Made by a program: the position numbers and the translations under genes
The notes under the pieces: model-generated
What the model was told of the DNA's origin: nothing
Seen by the model: the letters and a program-made list of their open reading frames with translations, nothing else
Databases searched by the model: none
Source of the DNA: Synergistota bacterium
GTDB lineage: Bacteria; Synergistota; JAGHAJ01
Reading direction: 5' to 3'
Assembly (NCBI GenBank): GCA_021161545.1
Contig: JAGHAJ010000158.1
Span: 1-8,021, forward strand
DNA: 8,021 nt
In this document: piece after piece, positions 1,771-7,769 of the stretch
Layout: the number at the start of each line of letters is the position of its first letter
Position numbering within the stretch: the first letter of the stretch is position 1

Positions 1771-1865
1771 CAGGTAATGTCAACTTTTCACAGATAGGTA
1801 TTATGTTCCGGTTTAGGAAAAATAAAAGAGCAATAAATACAGGGACCGGCTTTGCAACCAATCCC

Positions 1866-2996
1866 CTAAAAATCATGACTGTGAGGTATTCCCTTCCTGT
1901 GCAGCTCAAGGTGTTTATTTCCTTCTGCCCACCCATCATTTGCATCTTCCTTAGCATCAAGAGAAGCAACATACGGCTTTATATCCACCACCTCTGTTCC
2001 ATCAAAAGCATCCATCGGGGATATTACAAGCGTAGTACCTTTAATGGCAAGTAGCTTAACAATAGAAAGCCCAATTTTGGTAGGCCTATTAGGGCTCCTA
2101 CTCGCAAAGAGCCCTACCTCATCGGTTATCCATGGAGGGTGTGCTATATTAGACTTATATCTCGCCCTATCAAGCCAGAAAAGGACTATTATGTATTTAA
2201 ATGTTTCAAGTCCTCTAAGCGCCTCTTTATACTCAGGGTAAAGTTCTATTTTAAACTCTGCATCTTCATATTCCACAGGTTGATATGGCGCAGCATCTTT
2301 ATACGGCGTCCTTATGATTCCTATCGGTTTAACACCGTAATTTCCCTCAATCCGAACAACTTCGACACTCTCACCTTCCTGCCCTTCAACCTCAAAAAGG
2401 TAAGCAACCTTATGTCTGTCTATCTGCTCACCAACCGCCTTTAGGACTGCAACACTTGAAGGAGTTGCAAGCTCTCTCTTTACATCACTTTTATACCATA
2501 AAAGGCCCTCTAAGAGCCTCTTCGTTGCAGGAGCTGGGACATCAAGCAAACCGTGAGACGTCATAACCTTTCCAGAACCCACGTTTATTGAAGAAAAGAA
2601 TACCCTATCTACCTTAAGGTAGTATATTCCATAACATATTCCAACAACCATGGTTATAGCCCAATTACTCCCTACCTCATGAAAGTGAACACTATCAATA
2701 GATTCACCATGTACATAAGCCTCTGCCTCTGCAAGTAACCTATAGGTGCCTGCCACCTTATCTCTCACATCAACAGGTAAAATCATTCTCGATACAAGCC
2801 CAAGAACATCGGAAAAATGTCTGTGGGCTTCCCGGTCATCTTTGGGTACAAGAAGACTTTCTGCTTCAACAGGCAGAAAACCAACAGGCCTTATAGCTGC
2901 ATTCAACTTCTCAAGAGGAAAACCCATTTCAACGAGGCTGTGAAATATCGCCTCTTTCCTCGCACCACCAGAAAGGTCAAAGAATAGAATCCTCAT
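1866..2996 (-). CDS. fusion of a LarC N-terminal-like domain with a TsaA/TrmO-like domain
   Basis: This 376-residue protein has two recognisable parts. Residues 1 to about 193 resemble the first domain of LarC (formerly DUF111), the nickel-pincer cofactor nickel insertase. Seen motifs are MRILFFDL at the start, HRHFSD (58-63), HFHEVG (104-109), HG..DVPAPAT (148-158) and ELATP (175-179). Several family-typical residues are changed: the usual GISGDM after the first strand is GARKEA here, and EVGAVDSI is EVGSNWAI. The CTP-binding LarC C-terminal domain is absent. In its place, after a linker, residues 222 to about 360 match TsaA/TrmO (SAM-dependent m6t6A37 tRNA methyltransferase), with IGIIRTPY (225-232), GLFASRSPNRP (295-305) and DGTEVVDIKPY (332-342). 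The usual RPNPIG is RPTKIG. The ATG at 2996 overlaps the kinase stop by one base (TGATG). Activity is unknown; the domain identities are strong, the function is not assigned. Confidence 0.88.
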   Translation of the reverse strand: MRILFFDLSGGARKEAIFHSLVEMGFPLEKLNAAIRPVGFLPVEAESLLVPKDDREAHRHFSDVLGLVSRMILPVDVRDKVAGTYRLLAEAEAYVHGESIDSVHFHEVGSNWAITMVVGICYGIYYLKVDRVFFSSINVGSGKVMTSHGLLDVPAPATKRLLEGLLWYKSDVKRELATPSSVAVLKAVGEQIDRHKVAYLFEVEGQEGESVEVVRIEGNYGVKPIGIIRTPYKDAAPYQPVEYEDAEFKIELYPEYKEALRGLETFKYIIVLFWLDRARYKSNIAHPPWITDEVGLFASRSPNRPTKIGLSIVKLLAIKGTTLVISPMDAFDGTEVVDIKPYVASLDAKEDANDGWAEGNKHLELHRKGIPHSHDF

Positions 2997-4177
2997 CAGC
3001 AAATCCTCACATACTTTGGTAAACCATCCACTATAGGTACCTTCACCTCACCAACTATGAGAGGCTTCACATACTCCACATACAAAGCATCATCATCCAC
3101 ATATTCCTGTGAAAGTTCCCTCTCTTTATTGGCAACAACAGAAAGAGGAGCAGTTGCAGTTTCACCCACTTCTTCACCCAGCGTCACCATGACACCAGTT
3201 ATCCCGTCCAAGATAAGCTCAACTGCTCTTTTCCCGACCAGTATAGCATCATTTCTGTCTCTTAAAGATGCAAAGTGCATGGCACTTTGTTGGCATATAT
3301 CCAGTTTTATAGTTCTCGTCTTTAGCTTAAGTTCTCTTTCTATCACTAATTTCAGGTACTCCCCCACACTTCCAAGCATGGGATGTCCAAAGGCATCAAC
3401 AGAGACATCATCGCTCTCAACACCTATATACTCTCCAGAGTCATCCTTCAACCCCTCTCCCGTAACTATAAACACCCAGCCAGTCTTCCTGTAAACACGC
3501 TCAACATCGGCTAAAATTATATCCTTAGACACAGGCACTTCAGGCACATATACCAGATGAGGAGCATTGCTCCCATATTTCCTTGCAAGTATAGTGGATT
3601 TTGGTAGCCACCCCGTATTTCTTCCAACTGTTGTCAGTATGGTAATAGGTTCGGAAGTGGCCATGCTTTCTGCATGTATGCCCGCCTCCATGACAGATGT
3701 CGCAACATATTTAGCCGCACTGCCAAAACCCGGACAGTGATGCGTTTCAACAAGGTCATTATCTATGGTCTTTGGAATACCAATCACCTTGAGCTCATAT
3801 CCCACTTTTTTTGCCGCTTCATATATCTTATTTGCAGTATCCATAGAGTCATTGCCACCAATGTAAAAGAAGTAACCTATCCCATGTCTGTCAAAGAAAT
3901 CAAATATACTCTTGGTGTCACCATTGCTACCCTTCAGCATATACCTACATCCACCAAGAGCCGCACCGGGAGTATATTTCAATCCTTCCAAGAGGGCGTC
4001 ATCTACCACCGTTAGGTCAACCATTTCCCCTTTAAGCATACCTTCAACACCATGAACAGCTCCATATATCTTTCCGGCTTCTCCTCTCTTCCACTCCGTT
4101 ATTACACCGTATAAGCTACTGTTTATAACTGCTGTAGGACCTCCTGACTGTCCAATTACAGCATTTCTCCCAACCAC
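2996..4177 (-). CDS. 6-phosphofructokinase, probably pyrophosphate-dependent
   Basis: This 393-residue cytoplasmic protein is of the PfkA superfamily. It would phosphorylate fructose 6-phosphate, or a related ketose phosphate, at C1. Visible motifs are SGGPTAVIN (11-19), the phosphate-donor loop GGNDSM (107-112), the catalytic PKTIDND (135-141, base Asp139), GRNTGW (175-180) and GEG (220-222). ATP enzymes usually have Gly where this protein has Asp110 (GGDGS) and Gly where it has Lys136 (PGTIDND). Asp and Lys at these places are the established signature of PPi-dependent enzymes, which are usually reversible and unregulated. The length fits the roughly 400-residue PPi group known from Thermotoga. 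The start is GTG at 4177, preceded by AAGGGGGG about 6 nt upstream and 20 nt after the phosphatase stop. It may act on a sugar phosphate peculiar to this operon; the sequence cannot decide that. Confidence 0.92.
   Translation of the reverse strand: MVGRNAVIGQSGGPTAVINSSLYGVITEWKRGEAGKIYGAVHGVEGMLKGEMVDLTVVDDALLEGLKYTPGAALGGCRYMLKGSNGDTKSIFDFFDRHGIGYFFYIGGNDSMDTANKIYEAAKKVGYELKVIGIPKTIDNDLVETHHCPGFGSAAKYVATSVMEAGIHAESMATSEPITILTTVGRNTGWLPKSTILARKYGSNAPHLVYVPEVPVSKDIILADVERVYRKTGWVFIVTGEGLKDDSGEYIGVESDDVSVDAFGHPMLGSVGEYLKLVIERELKLKTRTIKLDICQQSAMHFASLRDRNDAILVGKRAVELILDGITGVMVTLGEEVGETATAPLSVVANKERELSQEYVDDDALYVEYVKPLIVGEVKVPIVDGLPKYVRIC
3004..3008 (-). promoter_or_regulatory. Shine-Dalgarno deciding the LarC/TrmO fusion start
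   Basis: GAGGA on the minus strand ends 7 nt before the ATG at 2996. The in-frame TTG at 3002 would sit only one base from it. The ATG is therefore the start, and the kinase stop codon overlaps it, indicating coupled translation. Confidence 0.65.
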
Positions 4178-4197: not shown

Positions 4198-4821
4198 TCA
4201 GTATATCTTAAGGAGCTCACTCAAATTCTCTATTACAGGGACACCAAATTTCATCTTAAAGGTATCTATATCAAACATGCCCAGTTTCCCGATGAACTTA
4301 ATGCCATATCCAAGCGCCCTCTCAGCATCCTTCAACGAATCACCTACAAAAACTACCTCATCTTTCTCAACAGCAAAACTCTCAATGGTATAGTCAAAGT
4401 GTGGCTTTCCCTTTCCAAATCCATTTCTAAAACCAAGAATAAGGTCAAACTCAAGACCACATTTGTGAAAATAATCTTCAACATTCTCCTGAAAATTACT
4501 GGATGACACGACAACCCTATAATTTCTTGACCTTAACCCTTCAACAGTAAAAATCGTATCAGAGTAAAGAGGATAGGTAAATAGCTCCTTTCGCTTCCTC
4601 GATTCAAATCTATTTACCACTATAGAATTCCTCTCACCATTCGGAAAAAGGAGCTCCACCTGCTCAGAAAAAGGGAGTCCCGAAGACTCCCTATAAAATG
4701 AGACGACCTCGTCTCTTGGTATATCATACTCTCTCGTGATTTCATCTGCTGCTATTTCTGTAAGTCTCTCCATAGAATCCACCAGCGTGCCATCAAAATC
4801 AAACATTATAACCCTTACCAT
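4198..4821 (-). CDS. HAD-superfamily hydrolase (phosphoglycolate phosphatase-like)
   Basis: This 207-residue soluble phosphatase has all four HAD motifs. Motif I is DFDGTLVDS, with nucleophile Asp8 and acid/base Asp10. Motif II is the Ser run at VVVSSSN (103-109). Motif III has lysines at 137-139 (KGKP), and motif IV is GDSLKD (160-165). The segment between motifs I and II (about 20-95) is a helical cap, placing it in the cap-C1 group with phosphoglycolate phosphatase and beta-phosphoglucomutase. These dephosphorylate small sugar or acid phosphates, and the exact substrate is not readable. The ATG at 4821 lies inside the epimerase end (GGATGGTAA), giving a 7-nt overlap. An internal ATG at 4806, giving MFDFDGT, is possible. 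Its place between an epimerase and a PPi-type kinase suggests it acts on, or clears, a phosphorylated intermediate or by-product of the same pathway. Confidence 0.9.
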   Translation of the reverse strand: MVRVIMFDFDGTLVDSMERLTEIAADEITREYDIPRDEVVSFYRESSGLPFSEQVELLFPNGERNSIVVNRFESRKRKELFTYPLYSDTIFTVEGLRSRNYRVVVSSSNFQENVEDYFHKCGLEFDLILGFRNGFGKGKPHFDYTIESFAVEKDEVVFVGDSLKDAERALGYGIKFIGKLGMFDIDTFKMKFGVPVIENLSELLKIY

Positions 4822-5627
4822 CCAAACACCTGCCTCATGGTTTGTATCGCTTTTTCAGCCGCTGTATCTGGGTTCGGCATGGGAAGTATTTCAGCGGAGA
4901 TGTAACCATTATACCCTACTTCGTCAAGTGCTTTCTTAATCGCAACAAAATCTATATGACCAAAGCCAGGAGCCCATCTGTTACTATCTGCCACATGCAC
5001 ATGCCCTATCTTACTTCCCGCCTGCTTTATGCTCCGCACCATATCAGGTTCTTCAATGTTCATGTGAAATGTATCCACAAGTACATATACATTCTCCATA
5101 GACACAGCGTCTATAAGCTCCAAAACCTCCGACACTGTGTTGATGTAGTTCACTTCATACCTATTTATAGGCTCAATAAGGATACTTAACCCCCTTGTAG
5201 AGGCGTATTCAGCACATCTTCTCACACCTTCAATAAGCCACATATATGCATCATTCCTGTTAACACCTTTTTCCACATTACCCCTTATAAGTCCAAGTAT
5301 TACAGCCGCACCAAAATTAGCTGCAAAATCAACCTGTAACATCAACCTCTCTTGAGCCCTTTCCCTTATACCCTTATCCGAAGAGGAAAGGGACAGGCCC
5401 TCAACAAGGAAGGCCTGTCCTGTGCCTACAGCAGGAACTTGAAGTCCAGAATTCTTCACAATGGAGTTTATCTCATCTATATCTACCTTTTGTGGATTCC
5501 TGACAGCAATTTCAACACCATCATAACCTAATTCTGCAACCTTTCTTACACTCTTAGTAAGGCTATCCTTAAACGCCAATGCCTCAAACTCTGCATCTGG
5601 AGTTGACACCACTATAGCTGCCTTCAA
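4815..5627 (-). CDS. iolO: ketose 3-epimerase-like TIM-barrel protein, probable 5-keto-L-gluconate epimerase
   Basis: This is a xylose isomerase-like TIM barrel of 270 residues from the TTG start. Every active-site residue I recall from D-psicose/D-tagatose 3-epimerases lines up at a constant offset: Glu152, Asp185, His211 and Glu246 for the metal, and Glu158, His188 and Arg217 for the substrate. Stretches such as STPDAEFEALAFK near the start, GTGQAFLVEGLSL, TFHMNIEE and HVADSNRWAPG closely resemble the Thermotoga maritima TM0416 protein (IolO), which converts 5-keto-L-gluconate to D-tagaturonate. That comparison is from memory. The frame can also start at GTG 5639. I chose TTG 5627 because GAGGTG sits 9 nt before it and because the family begins right there (MKAAIVVST). 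It follows iolN directly, which fits the pathway order. Function is well supported by both sequence and context, though unproven. Confidence 0.87.
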   Translation of the reverse strand: MKAAIVVSTPDAEFEALAFKDSLTKSVRKVAELGYDGVEIAVRNPQKVDIDEINSIVKNSGLQVPAVGTGQAFLVEGLSLSSSDKGIRERAQERLMLQVDFAANFGAAVILGLIRGNVEKGVNRNDAYMWLIEGVRRCAEYASTRGLSILIEPINRYEVNYINTVSEVLELIDAVSMENVYVLVDTFHMNIEEPDMVRSIKQAGSKIGHVHVADSNRWAPGFGHIDFVAIKKALDEVGYNGYISAEILPMPNPDTAAEKAIQTMRQVFGW

Positions 5628-5636
5628 GATAAACAC

Positions 5637-5642
5637 CACCTC
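5637..5642 (-). promoter_or_regulatory. Shine-Dalgarno deciding the epimerase start
   Basis: GAGGTG on the minus strand overlaps the iolN-like stop codon (TGA) and ends 9 nt before TTG 5627. The alternative GTG starts at 5639 and 5636 lie within or against this site and would have no proper ribosome binding site of their own. Confidence 0.65.
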
Positions 5643-6741
5643 AAAAGCCTATTTTGGGCAATCCGTAAACAGGTTTCCAACCATCACTCTCCGGTTCTTT
5701 AAGGTACGGCTCCATCTCCTTTGCAGACCTCAATGTAACCTCCTCAACTGGAGGCACTTTCCCGGGTGGAAACGTCTCCAAAATCTGGTCATTTACCAGC
5801 GTTAAATACTTTAATATCGCAGCTATAGGCCTTTTTGCCTTCTTCGGGTCTCCCAACGTAGCTTTACCCACAACTCCAACGGGCTGAGCTACAATCTCTA
5901 TCGGTGCATGCCCTTCCCCTTCAGACCACCTGTGTGGCCTTCTAAACGGCTCAACTGATGTATCAAAGTGACCTCCAGGAAGGTAACTCCTGGTCTCTGT
6001 GTCACTTGCATGTTCCATATCAATCATCTCAGGTGGGAACATTAAAAGGGCAATAGAAGTTTCTGCTTCTGCAGCATGTATAAACTCCGTCTCCATGGCA
6101 TTGGGCTTACCATTCGGACCGAAAAACTCCCTAACAGCTCTATGCCAATCTAAAACCTGATATATACCAGGAAGCTGATACTTGTACATGAATTCATGTA
6201 GAGCAGATTCAAGCACCCATAGTTGGCCATGGTTGTTGAGTATTATCTGCTTTCTGAAACCGTCATTCCATAGTCCCAACATCACATTAACAAGCATCTC
6301 CTTCACAACATCCTGCGGGACATTTACCGTACCTGCCATCCCTATGTGATGGTATGGATGTGCCCCATAGTTTATTGGTGGCCATGCGAGATTAACAGGT
6401 TTTCCCTGCTTTGCAGTGTATCTCCGAACCGCCTCAGCAATCATGCATACAGCAAGCGTATCCATGCCAGAGCTCATATGGAGACCGTGCCTTTCAGTAC
6501 TACCCACAGGAATAATAACTATATCATTTCTCTTTCTGTTTTCAACCACTTGCTGACGAACCGCAGTCTGAATATAACTACCCGGCTTTGCTAACTCTGG
6601 AGGAGAAGGCACCTCATACTCTCTAAGAATCTCGTCTATTTCTTCTTCCGAAGCATCCCATATCTGTTTTTTCAACCTACCAACTTCGCTATCCTCAAAG
6701 ACTATTGCAGGATTTTCGGTTGTAATCCACATTCTTCCCAT
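5641..6741 (-). CDS. iolN: creatininase-superfamily hydrolase, probable 3-dehydro-scyllo-inosose hydrolase
   Basis: This 366-residue protein is well over the roughly 250 residues of ordinary creatininases, with about 70 extra N-terminal residues and a long C-terminal part. The metal-site pattern of creatininase is present with the right spacing: Glu83 and His85 in GSTERHG (80-86) and Asp94 in SGMD. ILNNHGQ follows (167-173), with His171 in the place of the next metal ligand, and HAAEAETS (222-229) corresponds to the family HAGE.ETS. GAHPYHHIG..GTV matches the family substrate loop. Its place between two Zn-dehydrogenases and an IolO-like epimerase matches the Thermotoga inositol cluster. There IolN, a creatininase-superfamily member, opens the ring of 3-dehydro-scyllo-inosose to give 5-keto-L-gluconate. 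GGGAGGT lies just upstream of the ATG. Superfamily membership is clear; the specific reaction rests largely on the neighbours. Creatinine itself is an unlikely substrate. Confidence 0.85.
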   Translation of the reverse strand: MGRMWITTENPAIVFEDSEVGRLKKQIWDASEEEIDEILREYEVPSPPELAKPGSYIQTAVRQQVVENRKRNDIVIIPVGSTERHGLHMSSGMDTLAVCMIAEAVRRYTAKQGKPVNLAWPPINYGAHPYHHIGMAGTVNVPQDVVKEMLVNVMLGLWNDGFRKQIILNNHGQLWVLESALHEFMYKYQLPGIYQVLDWHRAVREFFGPNGKPNAMETEFIHAAEAETSIALLMFPPEMIDMEHASDTETRSYLPGGHFDTSVEPFRRPHRWSEGEGHAPIEIVAQPVGVVGKATLGDPKKAKRPIAAILKYLTLVNDQILETFPPGKVPPVEEVTLRSAKEMEPYLKEPESDGWKPVYGLPKIGF

Positions 6742-6758
6742 ACTATTATACCTCCCTC

Positions 6759-7769
6759 TTAAGGCCTCAAAATTACCTCTATTGCCTCTTTTTGCCTCAT
6801 AGCATTAAGTCCAACTTTAAAATCCTGTAGTTTAAGGTCATGTGTGATAAGTTTCCTCAAAGGCAACACCTTCAAAGCCCTTATTGCGTCAGGAAATGTA
6901 TGGTCCGCTATGTACGTTCCCATGACATTTATCTCATGCCTCGTTATATCATACTGGTAAAGGTGCTGCTCAACAGACCTATTCATACCAAACAGTAACA
7001 CTCTTCCACCCCTTCTCACAACCTCAAGGGTATCACCAAAAAGTACACCAACCGCATCAACTACAATGTCCGCACCTATGTCTGTCTCGTCCATGACAAC
7101 ATCCTTCAAGGATGTCTCTTGCGGATTCACTATCATGTCTGCCCCCATCTCTTCCGCAAACCCTCTCCTGTAGTCAGATGGTTCTGAGACTATCACACGC
7201 ACACCAGATGCCTTGAATATCGCAATGTAGTAAAGTCCTATCGGACCAGCTCCAAGGACCACTGCAGTCTCTCCTATCATAGGTTCCAGCTTCTTCACAC
7301 CGCTCACAACACAAGATAAGGGTTCTGTAAATACAGCTATCTCAGGTGGAATACCATCAGGTATTCTGTGGAGGGAATACTGAGGAGCTACATTATACTT
7401 GGCGAAGCCCCCATCAATGAATATACCCAGTGTTGTCATATTTACACATAAATTCGGTCTGCCCATCTTACAATAAGCACAACTATCACATGGAATATTA
7501 GGGTCTATGACTACTCTATCTCCCACTTCAAATCCCTTAACCGCTCTGCCCTTCTCTATAATCTTACCTGTGTATTCATGACCCAGTATAGTGTCAGGAG
7601 TTGCAGGATGACCAGGAGGTACATTAAGTATCTGTATATCAGTCCCACATATACTCGCTGCTTCAACCTCAATCAATACCTCCTCATCCTTTTTTATCCT
7701 CGGGATTTCTCTTTCCTCAAGAGAAAACTTTCCATCACCCTTAAAAACAACTGCAAGCATCTTTTCCAT
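6759..7769 (-). CDS. zinc-dependent medium-chain (alcohol/polyol) dehydrogenase
   Basis: This 336-residue NAD(P)-dependent oxidoreductase is of the MDR family (threonine, sorbitol and galactitol dehydrogenase-like). The catalytic zinc site is Cys41 in CGTD and His64/Glu65 in GHEYTG, with Glu149 in TEPLS as the probable fourth ligand. A structural zinc site has four cysteines (94, 97, 100 and 108). The Rossmann loop is GAGPIG (173-178), and Glu196 at the end of the second strand favours NAD over NADP. It follows the iolM-like gene by 14 nt and precedes the iolN-like gene by 17 nt, so it belongs to the same transcription unit. A strong GAGGGGG lies 7 nt before the ATG. The known Thermotoga pathway uses a GFO/IDH/MocA-family enzyme for the first inositol oxidation. 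This protein could replace it, act on another polyol or inositol isomer, or reduce D-tagaturonate. Family certain, substrate unknown. Confidence 0.92.
   Translation of the reverse strand: MEKMLAVVFKGDGKFSLEEREIPRIKKDEEVLIEVEAASICGTDIQILNVPPGHPATPDTILGHEYTGKIIEKGRAVKGFEVGDRVVIDPNIPCDSCAYCKMGRPNLCVNMTTLGIFIDGGFAKYNVAPQYSLHRIPDGIPPEIAVFTEPLSCVVSGVKKLEPMIGETAVVLGAGPIGLYYIAIFKASGVRVIVSEPSDYRRGFAEEMGADMIVNPQETSLKDVVMDETDIGADIVVDAVGVLFGDTLEVVRRGGRVLLFGMNRSVEQHLYQYDITRHEINVMGTYIADHTFPDAIRALKVLPLRKLITHDLKLQDFKVGLNAMRQKEAIEVILRP

Follow-up and report, generated by a model that had tools for sequence, protein, structure and literature searches.

Gene content of the locus

The window analyzed here is a stretch of 8,021 nucleotides from a Synergistota bacterium (contig JAGHAJ010000158.1, assembly GCA_021161545.1). 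On its minus strand, genes for an alcohol dehydrogenase, an IolN-like protein, an IolO-like protein, a HAD phosphatase and a PPi-dependent phosphofructokinase follow one another in that order, and the last gene of the run joins a LarC1 domain to a TrmO domain. The features are as follows.

6759..7769, minus strand: Zn-type alcohol dehydrogenase gene, Tdh/IolM-like (PF08240/PF00107; the IolM and Tdh models matched below cut-off)
5641..6741, minus strand: IolN-like 3-dehydro-scyllo-inosose hydrolase gene (NF041098, 309.8 bits, cut-off 245)
4815..5639, minus strand: IolO-like 5-keto-L-gluconate epimerase gene (NF041099, 372.8 bits, cut-off 300)
4198..4821, minus strand: HAD-family phosphatase gene (PF13419)
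2996..4177, minus strand: PPi-dependent phosphofructokinase gene (NF010675, 430 bits); its stop overlaps the ATG of the fusion gene
1866..2996, minus strand: LarC1-TrmO fusion gene, a single open frame of 376 amino acids plus stop; both domain models match above curated cut-offs
2415..2984, minus strand: LarC1 (Ni_insertion N-terminal) domain, residues 5-194, matching PF01969 positions 2-205 of 375
2334..2414, minus strand: linker, residues 195-221, without an in-frame start codon
1956..2291, minus strand: TrmO_N (TsaA/UPF0066) AdoMet-methyltransferase domain, residues 236-347 (PF01980)
1841..1866, minus strand: terminator-like hairpin directly after the fusion stop (11 pairs, 5 of them G-C, in a scan; a consensus match alone)

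The fusion gene runs from an ATG at 2996, with a GAGG motif resembling a ribosome site 5' of it, to a stop codon that ends at 1866; oligopeptide-type ABC permease genes lie beyond the gene and the hairpin. Given that the IolN and IolO matches both exceed their equivalog cut-offs, the operon looks like one for Thermotoga-type inositol catabolism, a pathway assignment based on the NCBIfam models. The sequence-only reading had seen in this carbohydrate operon a hint of cofactor supply for an epimerase or racemase. That idea finds no footing here, as the epimerase of the operon is IolO-like, of the xylose-isomerase TIM-barrel family, and not LarA. The link to the carbohydrate operon itself also failed to hold, since neither LarC nor TrmO lies near the IolN loci that match best in the phylum. 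We considered a conserved tie between the fusion and the inositol operon and rejected it for the same reason (best IolN loci of genomes G121, G015, G018 and G041).

Both halves of the protein were matched separately. The LarC1 half (residues 5-194) matched PF01969 with 141.5 bits (E 5e-41, cut-off 22.1), and residues 236-347 matched PF01980 TrmO_N over profile positions 2-116 of 116 (112.9 bits, E 1.3e-32, cut-off 26.8). The protein also passed the NCBIfam models for LarC1 (TIGR00299, 126.8 bits, cut-off 90) and for TsaA/TrmO (TIGR00104, 125.2 bits, cut-off 93.25). By sequence search, the solved relative of the LarC1 half is LarC 12bi (E 1e-29), and those of the TrmO half are the TrmO-type structures 2nv4, 1xqb and 7btu (E 8e-26 to 4e-18); a PDB fold search gave no significant match. 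The PF01969 match ends at position 205 of 375 and the LarC2 model NF052512 is unmatched in the fusion, so the LarC C-terminal domain is indeed missing, as had been proposed. The claim of one uninterrupted frame joining LarC1 to a TsaA/TrmO-like domain is likewise borne out at the Pfam and NCBIfam cut-offs, each half scores above its own curated cut-off, and the frameshift that had been named as a refuting condition was looked for between the two domains and was absent, as was any stop codon. No ATG, GTG or TTG occurs in frame across residues 151-240, and thus the TrmO half cannot be separately produced from an ordinary start. GC, GC3 and codon preference are alike in both halves and in the neighboring genes, while shifted frames score close to 0. 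A chance origin of the frame is excluded.

Residues kept and lost in the two halves

A set of 46 LarC sequences, drawn almost entirely from the phylum, was compared with the LarC1 half. In the fusion, GDM at residues 14-16 reads KEA, D112 is replaced by W and D116 by M, and the TPTG motif has become TPSS. G14, M16, D112, D116, T180 and G181, all changed in the fusion, are kept by 46 of 46 homologs, and D15 and H56, also changed, are each kept by 45. Of 24 positions shared by all other sequences in a leave-one-out count, 6 are changed in the LarC1 half (no other sequence departs at more than 2), and this half differs at 13 of the 47 positions conserved in at least 90% of the 46 sequences. LarC from distant bacteria and from viral-contig records (L030, L033, L127-L131) keeps GDM and both aspartates. 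The fusion retains H58, H96, H104, H106, E107, H148, E175 and the PAPAT motif. Its profile match ends at 205, some 30 positions short of the end usual for lone LarC1 proteins in the phylum (about 235). In an AlphaFold2 model, most blocks of residues 1-195 have a pLDDT of 88-97, and so this half probably still folds. Nickel insertion by it appears unlikely, given the loss of residues kept by every other LarC examined. These substitutions at positions invariant in the 46 homologs also make an ordinary LarC1 activity unlikely.

The AdoMet contacts described for the Archaeoglobus fulgidus YaeB/TrmO protein are Q22, R82, D111 and K122, with mutation evidence in Escherichia coli (PMC4132733). Their equivalents in the fusion, Q239, R300, D329 and K340, were all kept in our alignment. 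Among 8 positions that are otherwise invariant, the TrmO half has 1 change, and other TrmO sequences have up to 2. Two further motifs are altered. The asparagine of RPN, found in 29 of 29 homologs, is T306 in the fusion, and the proline of DGTP, found in 28 of 29, is E335; these changes could impair catalysis. The C-terminal domain of bacterial TrmO, which carries DPRxxY and has been proposed as the tRNA-binding part (PMC4132733), is missing, with no TrmO_C match in the fusion and no DPR in its sequence. Archaeal-type, single-domain TrmO proteins might act on other targets, as suggested in the same paper (PMC4132733). In the phylum, the TrmO half is closest to the single-domain TrmO proteins of genomes G004 and G002 (46–47% identity, with weak tree support).

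Distribution of the fusion and of other Lar and TrmO genes

The fusion has so far been seen in the source genome alone. There was no second copy among 185 phylum genomes and none in viral contigs, and no plasmid or phage record covered 80% of the query in tblastn. A gapped DNA pattern, which captures fusions with CAC as the His codon and within about ±10 residues of the same spacing, was matched by five stretches in 84,980 species genomes, with no fusion among them: two were LarC with a chance second half, and three were unlike the fusion protein. We found no description of a LarC1-TrmO domain combination and, among the papers searched, none naming both LarC and TrmO, in agreement with the sequence-only view of the two as an odd pair.

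The source genome (1.58 Mb in 288 contigs, 82% complete) encodes one full LarC (C238), a lone LarC2 with LarB (C190), one LarE and five LarA proteins. Because full LarC, LarB, LarE and LarA are encoded elsewhere, the nickel-pincer cofactor would be independent of the fusion. In the same 82%-complete genome, no TrmO domain was found besides that of the fusion; across the phylum, 131 of 183 genomes have no TrmO match. Split LarC1 and LarC2 genes are common in the phylum. We considered, and rejected, the idea that the lone LarC2 on C190 is left over from a broken LarC whose first half gave rise to the fusion. This explanation is not needed, since genome G006 has a lone LarC2 and a full LarC but no other match containing LarC1, and the two halves did not fall together with one LarC in small trees (weak support). 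None of the short loci examined around the TrmO genes of relatives contained LarA, LarB, LarC or LarE, and TrmO and LarC genes are not close to each other in those phylum genomes for which the positions of both were listed.

The survey also brought several Lar-associated arrangements to light. A cluster of LarB, LarC1, a protein of about 600 amino acids (P592) and a lone LarC2 recurs in the phylum (L027:1-8761, L093, L094, L095, L096), and P592 has no Pfam or NCBIfam match. In several genomes, this cluster adjoins methylene-H4MPT dehydrogenase, ATP-grasp and formylmethanofuran dehydrogenase B/D-like genes, which suggests that a Lar-like step is tied to C1 cofactors. At L027:2427-2762, the gene for a small NifX/NafY-like (Nitro_FeMo-Co) protein overlaps the LarB gene. 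The full LarC lies in a run conserved between the source genome and G006, consisting of ATP-grasp (MptN-like), CitG, LarC and methylene-H4MPT dehydrogenase (L001:905-2083, L005:1429-2622). The five LarA homologs of the source genome, members of the nickel-pincer racemase superfamily, are at L034-L038 (C246, C21, C40, C276 and C64).

Interpretation and comparison with known systems

Loss is concentrated in one half of the protein, with 6 of 24 departures in LarC1 against 1 of 8 in TrmO. We hypothesize that the fusion is an AdoMet-dependent methyltransferase of the TrmO (beta-barrel, UPF0066) class in which a LarC1 module has been repurposed, a reading to which we assign a probability of about 40%, given that it best fits the asymmetry between kept AdoMet contacts and lost LarC1 invariants. 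The TrmO half would bind AdoMet and perform catalysis. The LarC1 half would retain its fold and most of its histidine and glutamate motifs and, with its acidic and GDM residues gone and no LarC2 partner domain, would no longer insert nickel; most likely, it would act as a substrate- or partner-binding module. The Lar genes elsewhere in the genome would leave the fusion free of its ancestral job, and a substrate other than t6A tRNA is most likely. That the protein is an active methyltransferase is itself an inference from sequence, and several points stand against the proposed repurposing: the fusion occurs in a single genome, the RPN asparagine and the DGTP proline are changed, and relatives do not share the operon link. 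The new modification chemistry that had been suggested at the outset is possible. There is a slim chance of a more specific version, in which the LarC1 module, although its nickel-insertion residues are gone, would still bind a nucleotide cofactor of the pincer type or another kind and pass it to the TrmO barrel to be methylated; if true, this would mean either a methylated cofactor not seen before or a small-molecule methyltransferase of a new class.

The strongest competing explanation, which we regard as doubtful, is that the fusion serves as the tRNA t6A37 (or other RNA) methyltransferase of the organism, with the LarC1 half replacing the TrmO C-terminal domain in RNA binding or dimerization. 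Such a role would be in keeping with a protein that passes the TrmO equivalog model, retains the AdoMet contacts and contributes the sole TrmO domain found in the incomplete genome. However, the protein has a single TrmO domain and no DPRxxY, a type not known to make m6t6A (PMC4132733), its gene sits in a sugar operon, and the many phylum genomes without a TrmO match argue that the modification is dispensable in this group.

It is also unlikely that the fusion is decaying or functionless, the product of a rearrangement in which a truncated LarC copy and a TrmO gene became joined, with both halves now drifting. A restriction to one genome, long branches and altered invariant residues in both halves could all be explained in this way, but the frame has stayed open over 376 codons with normal codon preference, its start overlaps the upstream stop, and all of the AdoMet contacts and most of the strictly invariant LarC1 residues have been kept.

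We consider a continuing nickel-pincer role improbable. Here, LarC1, together with the lone LarC2, would bind the precursor or cofactor, and the TrmO half would methylate it or be regulated by it. The lone LarC2 does share a gene run with LarB in a genome that has five LarA homologs, and split LarC1/LarC2 pairs are common in the phylum; nevertheless, D112, D116 and GDM are missing from the LarC1 half, the lone LarC2 of G006 occurs in a genome with a full LarC and no other LarC1 match and indicates that LarC2 does not need the fusion, and TrmO and LarC genes are not close to each other in phylum genomes where both were listed. Least probable is a chimeric assembly, an unlikely origin even for a metagenome-derived genome in 288 contigs that is 82% complete and a fusion found nowhere else, given that the join is in frame at a domain boundary, GC, GC3 and codon preference are alike on both sides, and the LarC1 half represents an unusual diverged paralog rather than a cut-off normal LarC.

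The fusion suggests that LarC1 can persist in the absence of LarC2 and of its own invariant acidic residues. Should a methyltransferase activity and its substrate be found, they would show a role of single-domain TrmO proteins outside tRNA. The general lesson is limited to what one diverged protein from one genome can teach.

The fusion has the N-terminal LarC1 domain in common with LarC, the pyridinium-3,5-bisthiocarboxylic acid mononucleotide nickel insertion protein (PF01969, PDB 12bi), its LarC1 half and the LarC of G006 share 42% identity, and it keeps the HFHEVG, NVGSG, HG and PAPAT motifs. Unlike LarC, it is without the LarC2 (CTP-domain) half, and its GDM, two aspartates, His56 and TPTG are changed. 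With TrmO/YaeB/TsaA proteins (UPF0066; AF_0241 2nv4 and the bacterial homologs 1xqb and 7btu), it shares the whole TrmO_N domain and the four AdoMet contacts, and its residues 220-348 are 47% identical to the TrmO of G004. It differs from them in having no TrmO_C or DPRxxY, in the change of the RPN asparagine to threonine and the DGTP proline to glutamate, and in its fusion behind LarC1. The lone LarC1 genes of L095 and L096 adjoin LarB and LarC2 and, in contrast to the fusion, have nothing TrmO-like attached. Like these split genes, the fusion encodes LarC1 apart from LarC2, and frameshifted DUF111 genes represent another case of this separation (PMC3711429).
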